Shown here in pieces: positions 5,667 to 14,408 of a stretch of DNA of 64,000 nt. Source of the DNA: Faecalibacterium prausnitzii. GTDB lineage: Bacteria > Bacillota > Clostridia > Oscillospirales > Ruminococcaceae. Under the pieces are notes generated by a model. The model ran no database searches. It was not told the DNA's origin and saw only the letters and a program-made list of their open reading frames with translations. Numbering within the stretch: position 1 is the stretch's first letter; each line of letters starts with the position of its first letter. Location: the NCBI RefSeq assembly GCF_003287495.1, contig NZ_PRLE01000004.1, forward strand, positions 124,001-188,000. The letters are read 5' to 3'. The translations under genes were made by a program, and so were the position numbers.

Positions 5667-6674
5667 TTACGGCACCTTTACAGTTGTGACTTTCGTTACA
5701 CGTTTTTTCTGATAAGGTTTTGAACACACAGCCGTCAGGGAAGATCCATTGTTCTCGTTTCCAAAGAAAACAAAAAATCCGAACCATTTTCCTCGGATGC
5801 AACTTCCGTCGCTTTCGCCAAACATCAATGCCCCACAGTAGCCGCAGAACAGATTGGTGGTGAGCAGGTAGTCATCCTCTGCCTTTCTACGGGCAGGGGC
5901 TTTCTTGTTTTTCAACATCTTTTCCTGTACATCGTTGAAAAGCTCTGCGGGCACAATGGAGGGAATCGCATCGGGAATCAAAACATCACGATATTTCAGC
6001 TCCCCGATGTAGCGGCGATTGTTCAGCATATGCTGAATGGTGTTGAAGGTCATCAGCCCGCCACGCTGGTTCTTGACGCCCTTTTCGTTCAGCCAATCCC
6101 GAATTTCCCGCATGGTCTGACCATCGTTGTACCGCTGGAAAGTTTCTGCCACAAAGGAAGCAGTCAACGGGTCGATTTCAAAGCGGCGGTCTGCGTTGAT
6201 GGTGTAGCCGAAAGGGATAGCACCGCCAGAAAATTTGCCTTTCAGGGCGTTTTCCGTCATGCCGCGAATGACCTTTTCAGACAGGTCAGCGGAATAATAC
6301 TCGACATAACCTTCCAGCACTGACTCCAGAATGATGCCCTCCGGCCCCTCGGAGATGATCTCGGTGGCCGACATAAACTCGACACCGTTCTTCTTCAGCT
6401 GGGTCTTGTACCGGGCACTGTCGTAGCGGTTTCGGGCAAAACGATCCAACTTCCAGACCTGCACAATGTCAAACAGCTTCTTGTCGCTGTCTTTAATCAT
6501 CTGCTGGAACTCGGGTCGATTGTCCGTCTTGGCAGAGATAGCACGGTCAATGTAGTGCTTGACGATGATGATGCCATTCTTTTCCGCATAGGCAGTGCAT
6601 TCACGAATCTGGCCTTCGATAGATTCTTCGCGCTAGTTGTCGCTGGAATAGCGGACATAGATCACGGCGGTCAT
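5667..6674 (-). pseudogene. Large serine recombinase, disrupted by a nonsense codon and altered at the C-terminus
   Basis: From ATG 6674 (good GGGAGGT site) the product begins MTAVIYVRYSSDN, the resolvase start with its catalytic Ser in the YSSDN motif. A TAG at 6633-6635 then stops it at codon 14. The frame resumes REESIEGQIRECTAYAEKNG and runs on through VQVWKLDRFARNRYD, the recombinase domain (PFGYTINADRRFEIDPLTASFV) and the start of a zinc ribbon (LFCGYCGALMFGES). Relatives usually have Gln at the stop position, so one C-to-T change explains it. After the zinc-ribbon start the sequence diverges and ends early (about 335 codons against roughly 500 or more in the family), so the C-terminal coiled-coil part is missing as well. 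It marks the accessory island as a former mobile element. Confidence 0.88.
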
Positions 6675-6901: not shown

Positions 6902-9640
6902 ATGACTCCGGAAGCAAGAGCGCGGGAACAAATCGATAACAAATTGCGGCAAAGTGGCTGGACAATTCAGGATCTGAAACAACTAAATCTGACGGTTGCT
7001 TCCGGTGTTGCAGTGCGCGAGTTCCCTACCAATACCGGTCCGGTGGATTATGCACTTTTCATTGAGGGAGTGCCAGTTGGTGTTGTAGAGGCAAAGAAAG
7101 ACGAAGAAGGTCAAGCGCTGACAGACGTGGAAACGCAGTCCAGCCGCTATGCAAATAGCCAGTTCAAATGGGTAAAGCGGGAGTACAAGGTTCGGTTCGC
7201 CTACGAAGCCACTGGCGAATTGGTGCGTTTTACCGATTACGCAGATCTTAAATACCGTTCGCGCGAGGTATTCTCGTTTCACCGCCCGGAGACGTTGAAA
7301 CGCTGGCTTGCTGAACCGGATACTGTGCGCAACAATCTGAAGCGTATCCCGCAGCTGGATGAATCGGGCTTCCGCAAATGTCAAATCAGTGCAATTCATG
7401 GTCTGGACACTTCGTTTTCAGAAAATCGGCCGCGCTCTCTTGTGCAGATGGCAACCGGCGCAGGCAAGACCTTTACAGCCATTACTGCCGCCTATCGGCT
7501 GTTGAAATACGGCAGAATGAATCGCATCCTGTTTCTAGTAGATACCCGCAGCCTTGGTGAACAGGCCGAGCGCGAGTTCATGGCATACAAGCCCAATGAC
7601 GATCCTCGCAGCTTTTCGGAACTGTATGGTGTACGCCGGTTAAAAAACTCTTATATTTCCGGGGATGTGCAGGTCTGCATCAGTACGATTCAGCGGATGT
7701 ATTCCATTCTAAAAGGGGAAGAACTGGACGAACAGGCAGAAGAGATTCCCTTTGCGGAATATGTCACCGCCGAAAGCAAAGCACCAAAAGAGGTTGTCTA
7801 CAATGCCAAAATTCCGCCGGAGTTCTTTGACTGCATCATTGTAGATGAATGCCATCGTTCTATTTACAATGTATGGAGTCAAGTGCTTTCCTATTTTGAT
7901 GCGTTTATCATCGGCCTGACCGCTACGCCGGATAAGCGGACTATCGGCTACTTCAAAGAAAATTTTGTCAGTGAATATACGCGCGAGCAGGCCGTTCTGG
8001 ACGGCGTTAACGTTGGCGAGGACATTTACCTGATTGAAACCGACGTGACGAAGAACGGTGCAACCATCCTGAAGCAGTTGATCGAGCGGCGCAACCGCCT
8101 GACGCGCGCTAAACGCTGGGAGCAGATGGACGAGGATGTGTTCTACACACAGTCCAAGTTGGATAAGGATGTCGTAAATCCAAGCCAGATCCGTGCTGTG
8201 ATTCGCACCTTCAAAGAAGCGCTCCATACCACGCTGTTCCCCTACCGGAAAGAAGTCCCCAAAACGCTGATTTTTGCCAAGACGGACAGCCATGCAGACG
8301 ATATTGTGCAGATTGTCCGGGAAGAATTCGGCGAAGGAAACGATTTTTGCAGAAAGATCACTTACAGCGCACAGAATCCGGAAGCTGTTCTCAGCTCGTT
8401 CCGGAATGACTACAACCCACGTATAGCCGTTACCGTGGATATGATTGCGACCGGTACGGATGTAAAGCCCATCGAGTGCCTGCTGTTCATGCGGGATGTG
8501 CGCAGCAGCAATTACTTCGAGCAGATGAAAGGCCGCGGCACCCGCACACTGAGCAAGGATGATTTACAAAAGGTAACACCTTCTGCTACGGAAAACAAAG
8601 ATCATTTTGTGATCGTGGATGCAGTGGGTGTAACCAAATCCAAAAAGACCGAGACCCGCACGCTGGAACGCAAGCCAGCTGTTTCCATGAAGGAACTGAT
8701 GATGAACATTGCACTCGGTGCGCGGGATGAGGATACCTTGACTTCTCTTGCAAACCGTGTGATTCGTCTCAGCCGCAGGATGGAACGCAGCGAACACAAG
8801 CAGTTCAAAGAAACAGTAGGGCAGACCGCAGAGCAGGTTGCGGAGAATCTGCTGAATGCCTTTGATGAAGATGTCATTCAGGCCAAAGCACAAGCAGAAA
8901 GCGGCGTGCTTACGCCCGCACCGGAACAGCTTGCACAGGCTCAGAAAGAACTCATCAAACAGGCCGTTGCACCTTTCCAGAAGCCGGAAGTGCGCGATTT
9001 TATTGAAAATGTCCGCCGCAGCCATGACCAGATCATCGACAGCGTTAATCTGGACAAAGTACTCTTTGCTGGTTATGATACCAATCAGGAGGAAACGGCA
9101 GATCGGGTGATTTCTACATTCAAGGATTTCATCGAGGAAAATAAAGATGAGATCATTGCCCTGCGCATCATCTACAATGAAACGTATAAAAAACGTCCGA
9201 TGGTACTGAAAAAGCTGACGGAACTGTATCAAAAACTCAAAGCAAAGGGCATCACGATTGAGCGCCTGTGGGATTGTTATGCCATCAAGCAGCCTGACAA
9301 GGTAAAGAAAGGTACACTTGCCCAGCTGACCGATCTGATTTCTATTATCCGTTTTCAGATGGGCTATACGGATACCCTCTCGCCTTTTGCCGACCGGGTA
9401 AACTACAACTTCAAACAGTGGACTTTCCGCCGCAACACCGGTGCGGTTCACTTTACCGCTGAGCAGATGGAATGGCTGCGGCTGATCAAGGAGCATATCA
9501 TCACATCGCTGAGCATTCTGCCGGAGGACTTGGAGTATACGCCGTTTGACAGCAAAGGCGGCTTGGGTGGGTTCTATCGGGTGTTCGGAGAAAAGTATCA
9601 GGAGATTTTGGATGAAATGAATGAGGAATTGGTAGCGTAA
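6902..9640 (+). CDS. hsdR: Type I restriction endonuclease subunit R
   Basis: 912 residues. The N-terminal nuclease has the PD-(D/E)XK pattern D49…E63-x-K65 (VDYALFIEGVPVGVVEAKK). The motor follows with Walker A ATGAGKT (184-190), DECH box (315-318), GLTATP (about 339) and motif VI QMKGRGTRTL. The C-terminal third matches the EcoEI-type R C-terminal domain. It translocates and cleaves DNA when recruited by the HsdM/HsdS complex at unmodified sites. It is followed with no gap by hsdS (TAA then ATG), so the two are coupled. Base composition is intermediate, less GC-rich than the core genes but far less AT-rich than the three genes that follow. Confidence 0.96.
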   Translation: MTPEARAREQIDNKLRQSGWTIQDLKQLNLTVASGVAVREFPTNTGPVDYALFIEGVPVGVVEAKKDEEGQALTDVETQSSRYANSQFKWVKREYKVRFAYEATGELVRFTDYADLKYRSREVFSFHRPETLKRWLAEPDTVRNNLKRIPQLDESGFRKCQISAIHGLDTSFSENRPRSLVQMATGAGKTFTAITAAYRLLKYGRMNRILFLVDTRSLGEQAEREFMAYKPNDDPRSFSELYGVRRLKNSYISGDVQVCISTIQRMYSILKGEELDEQAEEIPFAEYVTAESKAPKEVVYNAKIPPEFFDCIIVDECHRSIYNVWSQVLSYFDAFIIGLTATPDKRTIGYFKENFVSEYTREQAVLDGVNVGEDIYLIETDVTKNGATILKQLIERRNRLTRAKRWEQMDEDVFYTQSKLDKDVVNPSQIRAVIRTFKEALHTTLFPYRKEVPKTLIFAKTDSHADDIVQIVREEFGEGNDFCRKITYSAQNPEAVLSSFRNDYNPRIAVTVDMIATGTDVKPIECLLFMRDVRSSNYFEQMKGRGTRTLSKDDLQKVTPSATENKDHFVIVDAVGVTKSKKTETRTLERKPAVSMKELMMNIALGARDEDTLTSLANRVIRLSRRMERSEHKQFKETVGQTAEQVAENLLNAFDEDVIQAKAQAESGVLTPAPEQLAQAQKELIKQAVAPFQKPEVRDFIENVRRSHDQIIDSVNLDKVLFAGYDTNQEETADRVISTFKDFIEENKDEIIALRIIYNETYKKRPMVLKKLTELYQKLKAKGITIERLWDCYAIKQPDKVKKGTLAQLTDLISIIRFQMGYTDTLSPFADRVNYNFKQWTFRRNTGAVHFTAEQMEWLRLIKEHIITSLSILPEDLEYTPFDSKGGLGGFYRVFGEKYQEILDEMNEELVA

Positions 9641-10831
9641 ATGACATTAGTAGATATTATTTCAAATGGTGGCTTGCTTTGTGATGGAGATTGGATTGAA
9701 ACGAAAGATCAAGATGTAAGGGGTAAAGTTCGTCTTATTCAGCTTGCAGATATTGGCGATGGAGAATTTAAAGATAAATCGTCAAAATATATCACTTTAG
9801 AAACAGCGGAAAGACTTCATTGTACTTTCTTGGAAAAGGGTGATATTTTAATCGCAAGACTTCCCGAACCGCTTGGGCGGGCTTGTATTTTTCCACTAGA
9901 AGGAGCTTACATCACAGCAGTTGATATTGCGATTCTGCGGATAAAAGATATTTCTATAAATCCACAATATATTATGTATTTGATAAATTCAAGTACATTT
10001 CGTTCACAAATTAAGCAATATGAAAGCGGAACCACCAGAAAACGTATTTCACGAAAAAATCTTGAAAAGATAGAATTTTCTTTGCCGAATTTAGAAATTC
10101 AAAATCGAATCGTTGCCCGCATTGAAGAACTTTTTTCAAAGCTCGACAAGGCTGTTGATACGCTCAAAACTACAAAAGAGCAGTTGGCGGTGTATCGGCA
10201 GGCAGTATTGAAAGATGCGTTTTCTGATTTTGAGAAAAAGGACTCTATTCGTAATTTGACTACGGTTGTTACAAGTGGCTCACGAGGATGGGCAAAGTAT
10301 TACTCTGAAAACGGTGCTTTATTTGTAAGAATCGGAAATTTAACACATAGTGGCATTGATATTGATTTTAGCGATATTCAGCATATCACTCCACCGGACA
10401 ACGCCGAGGGCATTCGGACAAGATTGCAGCCAAATGATGTGCTTGTTTCTATTACAGCCGATCTTGGAAGCATTGGCTTTGTCTCAAAGAAGGGTGAAGA
10501 AGCATATATAAATCAACATATTGCTTTAGTCCGATTTCAAAACTCAGCGCAGGGGAGATTCATGGCGTGGTATTTGCGAAGTGAATATGGGCAGAAAGAT
10601 TTGCTAAAGAACAAACGCGGTGGTGGAAAACTTGGATTGGGTCTTGATGATATCCGAGATACCCCTGTTCCAATTGTCGATGACGTTACCGCAAAAGAAA
10701 CAGTGGATAAAATTGAAGAGCAACTTTCTGTTTGCAATAGTATTGAGAAAACAGTTGACACTGCCCTTGCACAGACAGATGCAATGCGACAGAGTATTTT
10801 GAAACAGGCGTTTAAGGAAGGAAGTATTTAA
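9641..10831 (+). CDS. hsdS: Type I restriction-modification specificity subunit S
   Basis: 396 residues with the two-half HsdS layout. TRD1 occupies about 1-150. A central conserved helix follows (IVARIEELFSKLDKAVDTLK…AVLKDAF), then TRD2 (about 205-345) and a C-terminal helix that repeats the spacer (NSIEKTVDTALAQTDAMRQSILKQAF). TRDs read the two halves of a bipartite DNA site, and the helices set the spacing and bind HsdM. The ATG follows the hsdR stop directly. The DNA is sharply AT-richer than hsdR, consistent with exchange of specificity genes. Position between hsdR and two foreign genes, with hsdM last, is unusual. Confidence 0.93.
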   Translation: MTLVDIISNGGLLCDGDWIETKDQDVRGKVRLIQLADIGDGEFKDKSSKYITLETAERLHCTFLEKGDILIARLPEPLGRACIFPLEGAYITAVDIAILRIKDISINPQYIMYLINSSTFRSQIKQYESGTTRKRISRKNLEKIEFSLPNLEIQNRIVARIEELFSKLDKAVDTLKTTKEQLAVYRQAVLKDAFSDFEKKDSIRNLTTVVTSGSRGWAKYYSENGALFVRIGNLTHSGIDIDFSDIQHITPPDNAEGIRTRLQPNDVLVSITADLGSIGFVSKKGEEAYINQHIALVRFQNSAQGRFMAWYLRSEYGQKDLLKNKRGGGKLGLGLDDIRDTPVPIVDDVTAKETVDKIEEQLSVCNSIEKTVDTALAQTDAMRQSILKQAFKEGSI

Positions 10832-10833
10832 GC

Positions 10834-12168
10834 ATGAGAAATCCGAAAATTTTGGGGTTGAATACAAACTTTGAATTATTGCATTTCCCTAATTTTCATG
10901 AGGATAGCTTTTCTTCTGTAATTTCACTTTTAGATTATGACGCACTTATCATTGATACTTCAAATTTGATATTTCAGTACACCGACAAGGAGAAATATAA
11001 AAACAGATATCTAGTGACAGAACCAGATGCCAGTCAAATGAAAGCTGACTTCGAGCATATACAGAAACAAGCTGATGAATTTTTGAGTGCAGGGCACAAT
11101 ATTTATCTCCTTGTTGGACACAACGAAAATTGTTACTGTCGCTATGAGAGGTCAGCCTTCGACTTATTAGGTGACCCGACAGAGTTTGATATGTATTCTT
11201 TTTTGCCAGTATCGCTGACATTAGAACATCTCAAAGGAAAGGAAATTGCCTCTTGTGGTAATGCGCCATTCAACACTTTTTTTGAAGTTAATAAAGGGAA
11301 CTTGGAATATAATGCTACGTTTGAAGTTCAAAAGGGAACAGTGCTGGCCAAAATACGAAAAACCGACAAAGTGATTTCTTTCAGCCAACAATATAAAAAA
11401 GGAACGATTATATTTCTGCCAACTCTTGACCCTGACATTATGATAGAAACGCCAAAAGGTAAAAAATTTATTGAAACTTTTTTACAAAGCATTTATGATA
11501 TCGATAATCAGTTGTGTTTAGAAAAAGAAGTGAACACTTTACCCGATTGGGCTGAAGATTTCCATATTTTAGATGAAATAAAAACAATTGATGCAAAACG
11601 GCAAGCCGAACAAAGAATTGAAAAGCTAAAGAAAGCACTTGAAACAGAGCAAAAAAAGCTAGAGCATATTATAAACTACAAACGGTTACTGACAGAAACT
11701 GGAGCACCACTTGAAAATATTGTAAAACAGGTTCTTTCGGAGCTTGGCTTTGAACTTTGTCCGACTGAAGAAAAACGTAGTGATGTGATTGCCAAGTATG
11801 GTGACATTGATATCGTTGCTGAGATTAAAGGCGTTGGCAAGAGTGCCGCTGAAAAACATGCCGCACAGCTTGAAAAATGGGCTTCGCAGTTTTTAATAGA
11901 CCATGGGCATCAACCTAGAGCACTGCTGATTGTAAATGGTTATAATACGTTGCCCTTGGATCAGCGCATAGAAGAAGTGTTTCCTGATCAGATGTTGAAA
12001 TACAGCACAAGCCGAGAACAAGCACTCATCACAACTACGCAACTTTTATGTCTATTTATCGAAATCCAAGAGCATCCCGAATGCAAAGAAGAACGCATTC
12101 AGGAGCTTTTGTCTACGATTGGCCGGTATAACCGCTATACAGACTATTCTGAGTTTATTACACAATAA
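10834..12168 (+). CDS. Uncharacterised coiled-coil protein with PD-(D/E)XK-like C-terminal domain
   Basis: 444 residues, starting 2 nt after hsdS. Residues 1-230 are mixed alpha/beta with Rossmann-like strands (DYDALIIDTSN, HNIYLLVGHNEN, GTIIFLPTL), possibly a glutamine-amidotransferase-like or flavodoxin-like fold; low certainty. About 250-290 is a charged coiled coil (KRQAEQRIEKLKKALETEQKK). About 300-400 looks like a restriction-endonuclease fold: VLSELGFELCP…GDIDIVAEIKG gives D-x(n)-E-x-K, and the following helix AEKHAAQLEKWASQF and strand PRALLIVNGY fit. Low GC, like hsdS. Co-transcription with RM genes suggests a defence or auxiliary nuclease/sensor role, but no homologue is recognised with confidence. 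Confidence 0.7.
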   Translation: MRNPKILGLNTNFELLHFPNFHEDSFSSVISLLDYDALIIDTSNLIFQYTDKEKYKNRYLVTEPDASQMKADFEHIQKQADEFLSAGHNIYLLVGHNENCYCRYERSAFDLLGDPTEFDMYSFLPVSLTLEHLKGKEIASCGNAPFNTFFEVNKGNLEYNATFEVQKGTVLAKIRKTDKVISFSQQYKKGTIIFLPTLDPDIMIETPKGKKFIETFLQSIYDIDNQLCLEKEVNTLPDWAEDFHILDEIKTIDAKRQAEQRIEKLKKALETEQKKLEHIINYKRLLTETGAPLENIVKQVLSELGFELCPTEEKRSDVIAKYGDIDIVAEIKGVGKSAAEKHAAQLEKWASQFLIDHGHQPRALLIVNGYNTLPLDQRIEEVFPDQMLKYSTSREQALITTTQLLCLFIEIQEHPECKEERIQELLSTIGRYNRYTDYSEFITQ

Positions 12169-12191
12169 ATCACACTAAAGGAGGTTTCACT

Positions 12192-12902
12192 ATGTCGTTT
12201 ATCATCACTGTTTATACCAGCGAAGGGATTGTCATGGCAAGTGACAGTAGATCAACCTATAACTTTACAAAGCAACTTGGTAATGGAAATTTTGAAACCT
12301 TGTGTGGTGCACAGATTACCGATACAACTTATAAAACGTTCCAGTGTAATAAGCATATCGGCATTTCCACTTGTGGAGATGCGAGTATCAATCAAACGCC
12401 AATTGCTGGATATATTGAAAAATTCATTCATGAAAAAGTCAATGCAGATAGCAGTGTTGGACAAGTATCAAATGATTTGCTGAATTACTTTAGCAATATC
12501 AATCCACACTTAAATACTCATTTTATTATTGCAGGATATGATTCTAATAATGCACTACCCGTTGTGAAGCAACTTTTTGTCGCTGATCAATCTATAAAAA
12601 ATTTTAGTACGAATTTTTCCGGTGCTGTTTGGGATGGTGAAACCGCAACGCTATCCAAACTTTTTACACAGCTTTATGCTAAAAATCCTGATGAAACCTA
12701 TTGTGCCATTCAAAATCATGGAATAAATTTCAACTTCTTCAACTTGCAAGATGCAATCAATTTTGCCCAGTATGCCGTTGATGTCACGATTAAAACGATG
12801 GCTTTTGAAAACTGTGTAAAAACCGTGGGTGGTCCAGTTGATATTCTTGTAATCAAGCCGACTGAATCTTTCTGGGTGGCCCGAAAAGAACTACATGCGT
12901 AA
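12192..12902 (+). CDS. Proteasome/HslV-like Ntn-hydrolase-fold protein
   Basis: 236 residues. The start matches the proteasome beta/HslV/Anbu fold: a short strand after Met, then GIVMASDSRST (proteasome: G.V.A.DSR.T) and YKTFQCNKHIGISTCGDASI, which aligns with the Lys33 strand and the following I..S..G..A stretch. By that alignment Ser2 would be the N-terminal nucleophile after Met removal, with D18 and K48 as the Asp17 and Lys33 equivalents. The rest (FIIAGYDSNN…, a late helix DAINFAQYAVDVTIKTMAF and VGGPVDILVIKP) also fits this fold. A strong AAAGGAGG lies 7 nt before the ATG. No HslU or Mpa-type ATPase is nearby. Placement inside an RM operon is unexpected; peptidase activity is unproven. 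Confidence 0.75.
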   Translation: MSFIITVYTSEGIVMASDSRSTYNFTKQLGNGNFETLCGAQITDTTYKTFQCNKHIGISTCGDASINQTPIAGYIEKFIHEKVNADSSVGQVSNDLLNYFSNINPHLNTHFIIAGYDSNNALPVVKQLFVADQSIKNFSTNFSGAVWDGETATLSKLFTQLYAKNPDETYCAIQNHGINFNFFNLQDAINFAQYAVDVTIKTMAFENCVKTVGGPVDILVIKPTESFWVARKELHA

Positions 12903-12914
12903 GGAATAAATATA

Positions 12915-14408
12915 ATGTCAGAACAATCTTCTAACATCGTCTCCAAAGTCTGGGGACTTTGCAATCCGCTGCGGGACGATGGTGTATCCTACGGTGATTA
13001 TCTCGAGCAGCTTACTTACCTAATCTTCCTGAAAATGTCCGATGAATACTCCCGCCCGCCGTATAAGCGAGAAACCGGCATCCCTAAAGGTTACACTTGG
13101 TCGGATATGAACACGCTTAAGGGCGCAGAGCTGGAAAATCAGTACCGCGCTATACTGGAGAGGCTGAGCGATGAAGGCGGCATTTTAGGGCAGATCTTCA
13201 AAGGGGCCGTCAACAAAATCAGCAATGTTTCCATCCTGTACCGCGTGGTGCAGATGATCGACAAGGAAAACTGGGTGTCCATGTCCTCCGATGTGAAGGG
13301 CGAGATCTACGAAGGTTTGCTGCAAAAGAACGCCGAGGACGTAAAAAGTGGTGCAGGGCAGTATTTTACACCCCGCCCGCTCATCAAAGCAATGGTGGCC
13401 TGTCTGCGCCCGGAACCGAAAAAGACGATTGCTGACCCCTGCTGTGGAAGCGGCGGCTTTTTCCTTGCTGCACAGGCGTTCTTGGCTGACCCAAAGAACT
13501 ATGCACTCGACCGCACAGAGAAAGAATTCCTGAAAAACGAAACGTTCTATGGAACTGAACTTGTGGTTGCAACCTTCAAACTCTGTCTGATGAATCTGTA
13601 TCTGCACAACATCGGTGACCTGTACGGCAAAGTCCCTGTCATGCGTGGGGATGCGCTGTTGTCTGACCCGGGTTATCGTGTGGACTATGTACTGACGAAC
13701 CCGCCGTTCGGTAAAAAATCCTCCATCACCTTCACCAATGAAGAAGAGGAGCAGGAAGAAGAGGATCTGGTCTACAACCGGCAGGATTTCTGGACGACCA
13801 GCTCAAATAAGCAGCTCAACTTTATCCAGCATATCAATACGATTCTGAAGCCGACCGGAAAGGCGGCCGTTGTTGTACCGGATAACGTTCTGTTTGAGGG
13901 TGGTGCAGGCGAAATCATCCGTAAAAAGCTGTTGGACACCACGGACTTGCACACCATTCTCCGCCTGCCAACTGGCATTTTTTACAAGCCGGGTGTAAAG
14001 GCAAATGTGATTTTCTTCGATAAGCGTCCCGCCAGCCCAGAGCGTCAGACAAAGGAAGTCTGGATCTACGATTTTCGCACAAATGTTCACTTTACGCTTC
14101 GTCAGCATCCCATGACGGACGCTGACTTGCAGGATTTCATTCAATGCTATCATCCGGAAAACCGCCACGTACGCACGGAAACATGGTCACCGGAAAATCC
14201 AGAAGGCCGCTGGCGCAGATTCACGGTAGATGAAATTCTGGAACGTGATAAAACCAGTCTGGATATTTTCTGGCTGAAGGACAAATCACTTGCCGATTTG
14301 GACAATCTCCCTGCGCCGGACGAACTTGCCGCGGATATTATTGAAAATTTGCAGAGTGCTCTGGAAAGTTTTCAGGAATTGATGGGGCAACTGAAAAAGA
14401 ACGATTGA
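12915..14408 (+). CDS. hsdM: Type I restriction-modification DNA methyltransferase subunit M
   Basis: 497 residues. HsdM N-terminal helical domain (VWGLCNPLRDDGVSYGDYLEQL.YLIFLK), then GQYFTPR (148-154), AdoMet motif DPCCGSGGFF (174-183) and catalytic NPPF (262-265), the N6-adenine methyltransferase signature. It methylates the site chosen by HsdS and forms the M2S core for restriction. Composition matches hsdR rather than the three AT-rich genes between them, so hsdR and hsdM look like the old frame of the locus. The ATG has AAGGAAT upstream and follows the Ntn-like gene by 12 nt. Confidence 0.96.
   Translation: MSEQSSNIVSKVWGLCNPLRDDGVSYGDYLEQLTYLIFLKMSDEYSRPPYKRETGIPKGYTWSDMNTLKGAELENQYRAILERLSDEGGILGQIFKGAVNKISNVSILYRVVQMIDKENWVSMSSDVKGEIYEGLLQKNAEDVKSGAGQYFTPRPLIKAMVACLRPEPKKTIADPCCGSGGFFLAAQAFLADPKNYALDRTEKEFLKNETFYGTELVVATFKLCLMNLYLHNIGDLYGKVPVMRGDALLSDPGYRVDYVLTNPPFGKKSSITFTNEEEEQEEEDLVYNRQDFWTTSSNKQLNFIQHINTILKPTGKAAVVVPDNVLFEGGAGEIIRKKLLDTTDLHTILRLPTGIFYKPGVKANVIFFDKRPASPERQTKEVWIYDFRTNVHFTLRQHPMTDADLQDFIQCYHPENRHVRTETWSPENPEGRWRRFTVDEILERDKTSLDIFWLKDKSLADLDNLPAPDELAADIIENLQSALESFQELMGQLKKND

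Follow-up and report, generated by a model that had tools for sequence, protein, structure and literature searches.

A proteasome-like protein encoded within a type I restriction-modification operon of Faecalibacterium prausnitzii, with relatives behind several unrelated restriction systems

Introduction

Why should a gene for a proteasome-like protein lie between the specificity and modification genes of a type I restriction-modification (RM) operon? The question is raised by a 64,000-nucleotide stretch of Faecalibacterium prausnitzii DNA (hereafter the window; part of source genome G000, 2.68 Mb in 19 contigs), in which a sequence-only reading had picked out two non-RM genes, orf444 and orf236, packed tightly between hsdS and hsdM. 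Prokaryotes have many orphan proteasome homologues, and according to the 2021 survey of Fuchs, Alva and Lupas (PMC8665760) there is almost no functional lead for them. In the portions available, that survey reports no genomic contexts suggestive of function for proteasome homologues, and its main text, as far as available, makes no use of “restriction”, “operon” or words beginning with “neighb-” or “defen-”.

Non-RM genes within type I operons have precedents. PrrC, an anticodon nuclease rather than a proteasome-like protein, is embedded in the type I operon EcoprrI, sequestered in the RM complex and released upon T4 infection (PMC3874165). TgvAB likewise lies inside an hsd operon, that of VPI-2, is related to GmrSD and has been shown to be active against phages by itself (PMC11411939). 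The hsd loci of Campylobacter jejuni also carry extra genes in the type I RM region, rloA and rloB, which are unrelated to orf236 and orf444 going by names alone (PMC2928727). Among the matches listed in open PMC papers, none links proteasome-like proteins with restriction or describes the arrangement in the window, in keeping with the earlier remark that no such system had been described.

Results

The window operon brings together HsdR, HsdS and HsdM domains (Pfam) and is therefore a type I restriction-modification operon. Its genes are laid out as follows:

hsdR, 6902..9640, + strand: type I restriction subunit, 912 aa (Pfam EcoEI_R_C 3.4e-40, ResIII 2.7e-36)
hsdS, 9641..10831, + strand: specificity subunit, 396 aa (Pfam Methylase_S 4.3e-19)
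orf444, 10834..12168, + strand: GATase/ThuA-like domain, long helix and FokI/BspD6I-like PD-(D/E)XK nuclease
orf236, 12192..12902, + strand: proteasome-like N-terminal-nucleophile (Ntn) protein, 236 aa
hsdM, 12915..14408, + strand: modification subunit, 497 aa (Pfam N6_Mtase 8.1e-70, HsdM_N 2.9e-10)
Cargo slot between hsdS and hsdM, 10832..12914, + strand: occupied by different genes in related operons

The two non-RM genes are indeed closely packed, with 23 nt between orf444 and orf236, and a gene embedded in an hsd operon is a feature that the window has in common with PrrC-type guard systems; Pfam families for anticodon-nuclease or ABC-ATPase domains of the PrrC type were found in neither orf444 nor orf236 (E up to 1). 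The window scan gave zero terminator-like sites on the + strand from the hsdR start to the hsdM start. Internal promoters are possible since promoter-like sites do occur on the + strand in this interval, with 21 such sites observed over the whole scanned stretch and both strands against 14.1 in shuffles. The G+C content drops to ~37–39% across hsdS, orf444 and orf236 as compared to ~46–52% for most of hsdR and hsdM, and for this reason the middle of the operon was probably exchanged at a later time. Upstream of hsdR there is a serine recombinase gene (5667–6500, − strand), a possible trace of a mobile element, the front of which may be missing because the resolvase match begins at profile position 55.

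The earlier suspicion that orf236 is an Ntn protein of the proteasome type is borne out by both fold and active site. Its fold is that of a proteasome β-subunit (with structure alignments covering folds other than those that Foldseek ranks low), and Ser2, Asp18, Lys48 and an oxyanion-type Gly62 correspond to proteasome Thr/Ser1, Asp17, Lys33 and Gly47. In 96 aligned rows the first position is S or T in 95 (1 gap), the Lys is kept in 93 (2 Arg, 1 gap) and the Gly in 95 (1 gap), while the Asp is present in 96 of 96, a count that reflects scan patterns which themselves demanded it. All 60 of the matches listed in the profile search are proteasomes, and because of this unanimity we discarded matches to Cas7f and interferon as chance; Pfam itself gives a Proteasome match below threshold only. 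Neither a meaningful PADLOC match nor a toxin-like domain was found for orf236. Signs of purifying selection on the orf236 clade come from dN/dS values of 0.02–0.09 in five of six pairs (the sixth was not computable), of which the two with dS below 1 (0.094 and 0.020) are the firmer and the others, having larger dS, are rough. Thus, orf236 is an intact proteasome-like Ntn protein in fold and catalytic triad. Judging from the sequence, removal of the initiator Met would place Ser2 as the nucleophile at the mature N-terminus.

Three divergent relatives, L004–L006, fall outside the 96-row count and have no Lys at the aligned place; position 2 is Ala in L004 and L005 and unaligned in L006, so that these proteins are perhaps inactive forms. 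By eye, their genes (in G215, G152 and G243) are near phosphoglucomutase-like genes.

It is useful to set orf236 beside the bacterial proteasome homologues already described. HslV and Anbu are such homologues too, and the Firmicute clusters FC1–FC5 resemble orf236 in having the proteasome β fold with the Thr/Ser1-Asp17-Lys33 and Gly47 positions, in occurring in Firmicutes, and in having no propeptide and no known unfoldase (PMC8665760). The relatives of orf236 found in this analysis have a wider spread, with members from Chloroflexota, an archaeal bin and other groups as well. Neither peptidase activity nor ring assembly is demanded for the name of a proteasome-like family in that work. HslV works with HslU, whereas Pfam finds no AAA+ unfoldase family, and hence nothing of the HslU type, among the five operon genes, as the sequence-only reading had expected of a protease without an unfoldase beside it. 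The source genome does encode ClpX; searching it for the Pfam Proteasome family gave no match, though orf236 too is missed by this search.

To place orf236 among its relatives, we relied on an alignment, as a first search of genome contigs with orf236 as sole query returned no relative. The second search, with the alignment, returned 124 relatives, of which the best 80 were kept; the pattern [PSN]EGI[AV][ML]A[AS]D used in searching restricts which relatives can turn up. Searching plasmids and phages by tblastn with orf236 and two of its relatives gave no match, and neither did a viral search with the L045 protein. Four further relatives were present in 398 genomes of the phylum, and the two examined (G832 and G913) have ordinary neighbours by eye. 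The tree comprises 93 rows, with L119, L123 and L042 left out, the last because its contig begins 73 nt ahead of the gene. Within it, the window groups with L035 and L036 (support 100/100) inside a clade of 29 rows (100/99). The HsdR of the window is 75% identical to that of L035 and 71% to that of L036, and its HsdM is 82–83% identical to both. Beyond the Ntn gene, on its downstream side, L014 and L042 show a translated stretch rich in repeats (~1700–2440) that by eye resembles a CRISPR array.

Counting the window, nine of the 29 rows in the clade are situated behind RM genes. The partners are HsdS of two type I kinds, endonucleases of HaeIII, AlwI and Eco47II type, and a DNA methyltransferase, in these arrangements:

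L035: hsdR-orf70-hsdS-Ntn-hsdM
L036: hsdR-hsdS-Ntn-236-aa membrane-type ORF-hsdM
Window: hsdR-hsdS-orf444-Ntn-hsdM
L041 and L044: hsdM-hsdS-Ntn-YhcG-hsdR, of a type I kind different from that of the window
L057: C5 methylase, HaeIII endonuclease, Ntn
L052: two D12 methylases, AlwI endonuclease, Ntn
L051: N6/N4 methylase, Ntn
L045: broken Eco47II-type endonuclease, Ntn 143 nt on
L054 (IetAS-like): Ntn 62 nt behind IetS
L111 (IetAS-like): Ntn behind DUF6414, with an IetAS-like pair just upstream on the opposite strand

The last two rows belong to the same clade and stand at IetAS-like genes. Four rows (L035, L036, L041 and L044) have an hsdS stop that overlaps the start of the Ntn gene by one base (TAATG). 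The orf236 clade thus recurs behind several unrelated restriction systems, tightly coupled behind an hsdS or endonuclease gene. The remaining 18 of 29 rows have no recognised RM or IetAS gene alongside, six of them as judged by eye (L046, L048, L058, L059, L065, L129). Some of their neighbours are unknowns; the named ones are DegT aminotransferase (3 rows), gyrB, GDPD, an alpha/beta hydrolase, a flavin reductase, a DUF4143 ATPase, a protein of metallo-beta-lactamase fold and, on the opposite strand, a topoisomerase. In L055 an AAA/RloB-like pair lies 278 nt downstream.

The rate of this association can be compared with a background, if roughly. Within the order, Methylase_S was found in 23 of 59 genomes, and a hand count of ~49 HsdS frames in the 59 genomes gives ~4e-4 per gene, assuming 2,000 genes per genome. 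With the 29 rows collapsed by hand to 24 lineages, two independent lineages behind HsdS have a P of ~5e-5, which is rough given the assumed number of genes per genome, and five lineages behind any RM gene have a P of ~1e-7 at an assumed 0.5% background; six were observed. The type I proteins of the window are matched in the flanks of 4 of 27 clade genome rows as against 1 of 53 others (L077; P 0.04, with L042, which is kin to the clade but absent from the tree, counted among the 53).

Beyond the clade, YhcG, HsdM and HsdS are matched close to the gene in L077, and a methyltransferase lies ~2.8 kb downstream in L103; for the remaining rows the neighbours were judged by eye only. The outcome named beforehand as speaking against an RM role, relatives scattered without a link to RM genes, largely describes the family as a whole, but not the orf236 clade with its nine rows behind RM genes. 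Several Chloroflexota relatives (L061, L062, L064, L069, L070, L071, L073) lie by eye behind dapF, some of them before an aminotransferase gene, an arrangement that by eye points to a housekeeping context conserved in this other lineage. Viral contigs of Firmicute type (L024, L026, L027, L028, L031) carry relatives between tail genes and holin/endolysin genes, as assigned by PHROGs for nine neighbours in four contigs (L024, L026, L027, L031) and by eye for L028; the interval from tail to holin/endolysin genes is a common place for accessory genes. The viral contig L129 carries two orf236 matches on opposite strands (2111–2784 and 5048–4440).

The predicted structure of orf444 has an N-terminal GATase/ThuA-like domain (~1–230), a long helix (246–281) compatible with a coiled coil, and a C-terminal FokI/BspD6I-like PD-(D/E)XK nuclease (~278–436) with the fold and the D...ExK core (D317, E330, K332, Q345). 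Since it was folded with only 5 rows (pTM 0.51), these domain limits are rough. The nuclease-like end that had been read from the sequence is recovered in the model, and the long helix would fit the coiled coil. The nuclease domain is 9–14% identical to the FokI and BspD6I nuclease domains and differs from them in being joined to a GATase-like domain by the long helix. Pfam gives no credible match for orf444 and a PDB sequence search none; its profile yields a single coiled-coil match (E 0.77), and PADLOC gives PDC-S02 (0.0093).

The pairing of orf444 with orf236, on the other hand, did not survive comparison. We compared the five window proteins with 105 loci by tblastn (flanks up to 9 kb per side, many contigs being shorter) and found no orf444 match near orf236 relatives in any of 80 genome loci, and no orf236 match at the seven orf444 loci tested (L011, L012, L013, L020–L022, L118). 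Relatives of orf444 are solitary where they occur in viral contigs, on plasmids of Enterobacter and in G145; a distant relative is found within another type I operon.

Near relatives of the window HsdM are rare: with E up to 1e-150 they occur in 4 of 295 genomes, one of which is the source genome of the window; among plasmids, 10 records have near relatives, of which four were opened. The contents of the slot between hsdS and hsdM in these operons are:

L148: orf273
L149: orf223, with hsdS named by eye
L151 (Pusillibacter): orf191 and orf233
L152 (Gemmobacter): DUF262 protein
L153 (Vibrio): empty

In L154 no annotated hsdS adjoins hsdM, and L150 is a cut match outside the comparison. Although HsdS is 59% identical between L036 and L148, the slot holds the Ntn gene in L036 and the unrelated orf273 in L148, which means that in operons of the window kind the Ntn gene is optional and is exchanged apart from HsdS. 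The other operon kind has retained its Ntn gene through a change of HsdS, as L041 and L044 are 94% identical in Ntn, 94% in HsdM and 98% in YhcG but only 34% in HsdS. The DUF262 protein in the Gemmobacter slot has no counterpart in the window and bears on the comparison with the GmrSD-related TgvAB (PMC11411939). PADLOC on six slot or neighbouring ORFs (L148, L149, L151, L152, L013) left five without a match and gave one weak PDC-S15; these ORFs beside hsdS are possible further embedded genes. By eye, small slot-cargo proteins in L036 (4350–5060) and L151 (6721–7296) have an N-terminal membrane-like segment.

Discussion

Because related hsd operons carry other genes in the same slot, orf236 is best described as interchangeable cargo. 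The explanation that we tentatively prefer, one that is quite possible though short of probable, is that this cargo acts as a protein-level second layer beside DNA cleavage, with orf444 as a separate second cargo (sensor-like domain, coiled coil and FokI-like nuclease) that has no obligate orf236 partner. Under this explanation orf236 would not be a core restriction subunit; it would be made together with the restriction proteins and hence be present once restriction is engaged, Met removal would free Ser2, and the protein would function as a peptidase with no unfoldase of its own, directed at a protein of the phage or at some target in the host. A block of restriction might also release or trigger it, in the manner of PrrC. 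We favour a second, protein-level layer since the precedents inside type I operons, PrrC and TgvAB, are separate or guarding defences; the relatives placed between tail and lysis genes in viral contigs also agree with it. Counting against it are the 18 clade rows away from RM and IetAS genes, the ordinary neighbours of G832 and G913 (by eye), the housekeeping settings of other lineages, such as dapF (by eye), and the failure to find a toxin-like domain in orf236.

In the main rival explanation, orf236 would instead be directed at the restriction enzyme itself, turning over or trimming co-made restriction subunits and sparing the host from cutting by a specificity that has newly arrived or recombined, as an operon-borne counterpart of ClpXP-driven restriction alleviation. 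ClpXP is a general protease encoded outside the hsd operon, and orf236 differs from it in being encoded within the operon with no ATPase beside it. There is a known case of a protease acting on a type I enzyme in the alleviation of EcoKI, where ClpXP targets HsdR (PMC4231737). It also seems fitting that, outside the window, the RM-linked Ntn gene lies directly behind a specificity, nuclease or (in L051) methyltransferase gene, that the common feature of its partners is a DNA-targeting restriction system, and that L041 and L044 keep Ntn, HsdM and YhcG while HsdS is exchanged, which is when alleviation is needed. We nevertheless consider such control unlikely, given that sister operons manage without the Ntn gene, that the host genome already encodes ClpX, that no unfoldase is found in the five operon genes, and that relatives lie beside metabolic genes and in viral contigs. 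About as doubtful is the proposal that orf236 is a mobile protein-processing or quality-control gene settling downstream of any operon, and frequent in defence loci merely because such loci are mobile and recombine at hsdS. The 18 of 29 rows elsewhere agree with this, as do the use of the same slot by other genes and a 12-row subclade, 63–94% identical, whose members come from Lachnospiraceae, Oscillospiraceae, Bifidobacterium and a Bacteroidales bin and have diverse neighbours. Six separate lineages behind RM genes, with the rough and assumption-based probabilities given above for two behind HsdS and five behind any RM gene, speak against chance settlement, and so does the start/stop overlap with hsdS in four rows. 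A single two-gene effector, in which orf236 would activate or inactivate the orf444 nuclease, is suggested by the adjacency of the two genes and their equally low G+C, but we regard it as very improbable and have dropped the pair because of the co-occurrence count (0 of 80 genome loci), to which the solitary orf444 relatives and the distant one in another type I operon add.

Returning to the second-layer explanation, the broader claim, that this lineage of proteasome homologues is a recurrent protein-cleaving part of restriction and IetAS loci, encoded right after the specificity or endonuclease gene and either policing the restriction enzyme or acting upon a restriction block, is somewhat unlikely as it stands; if true, a single immune unit of bacteria would combine the cleavage of DNA with proteolysis of the proteasome type. 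More embedded genes may in any case be sought in the variable slot between hsdS and hsdM. A clade found repeatedly behind restriction genes offers a direct and testable functional lead for stray proteasome-like proteins and, if confirmed, would put a proteasome-type enzyme to work either in the defence of bacteria against viruses or in restriction control.
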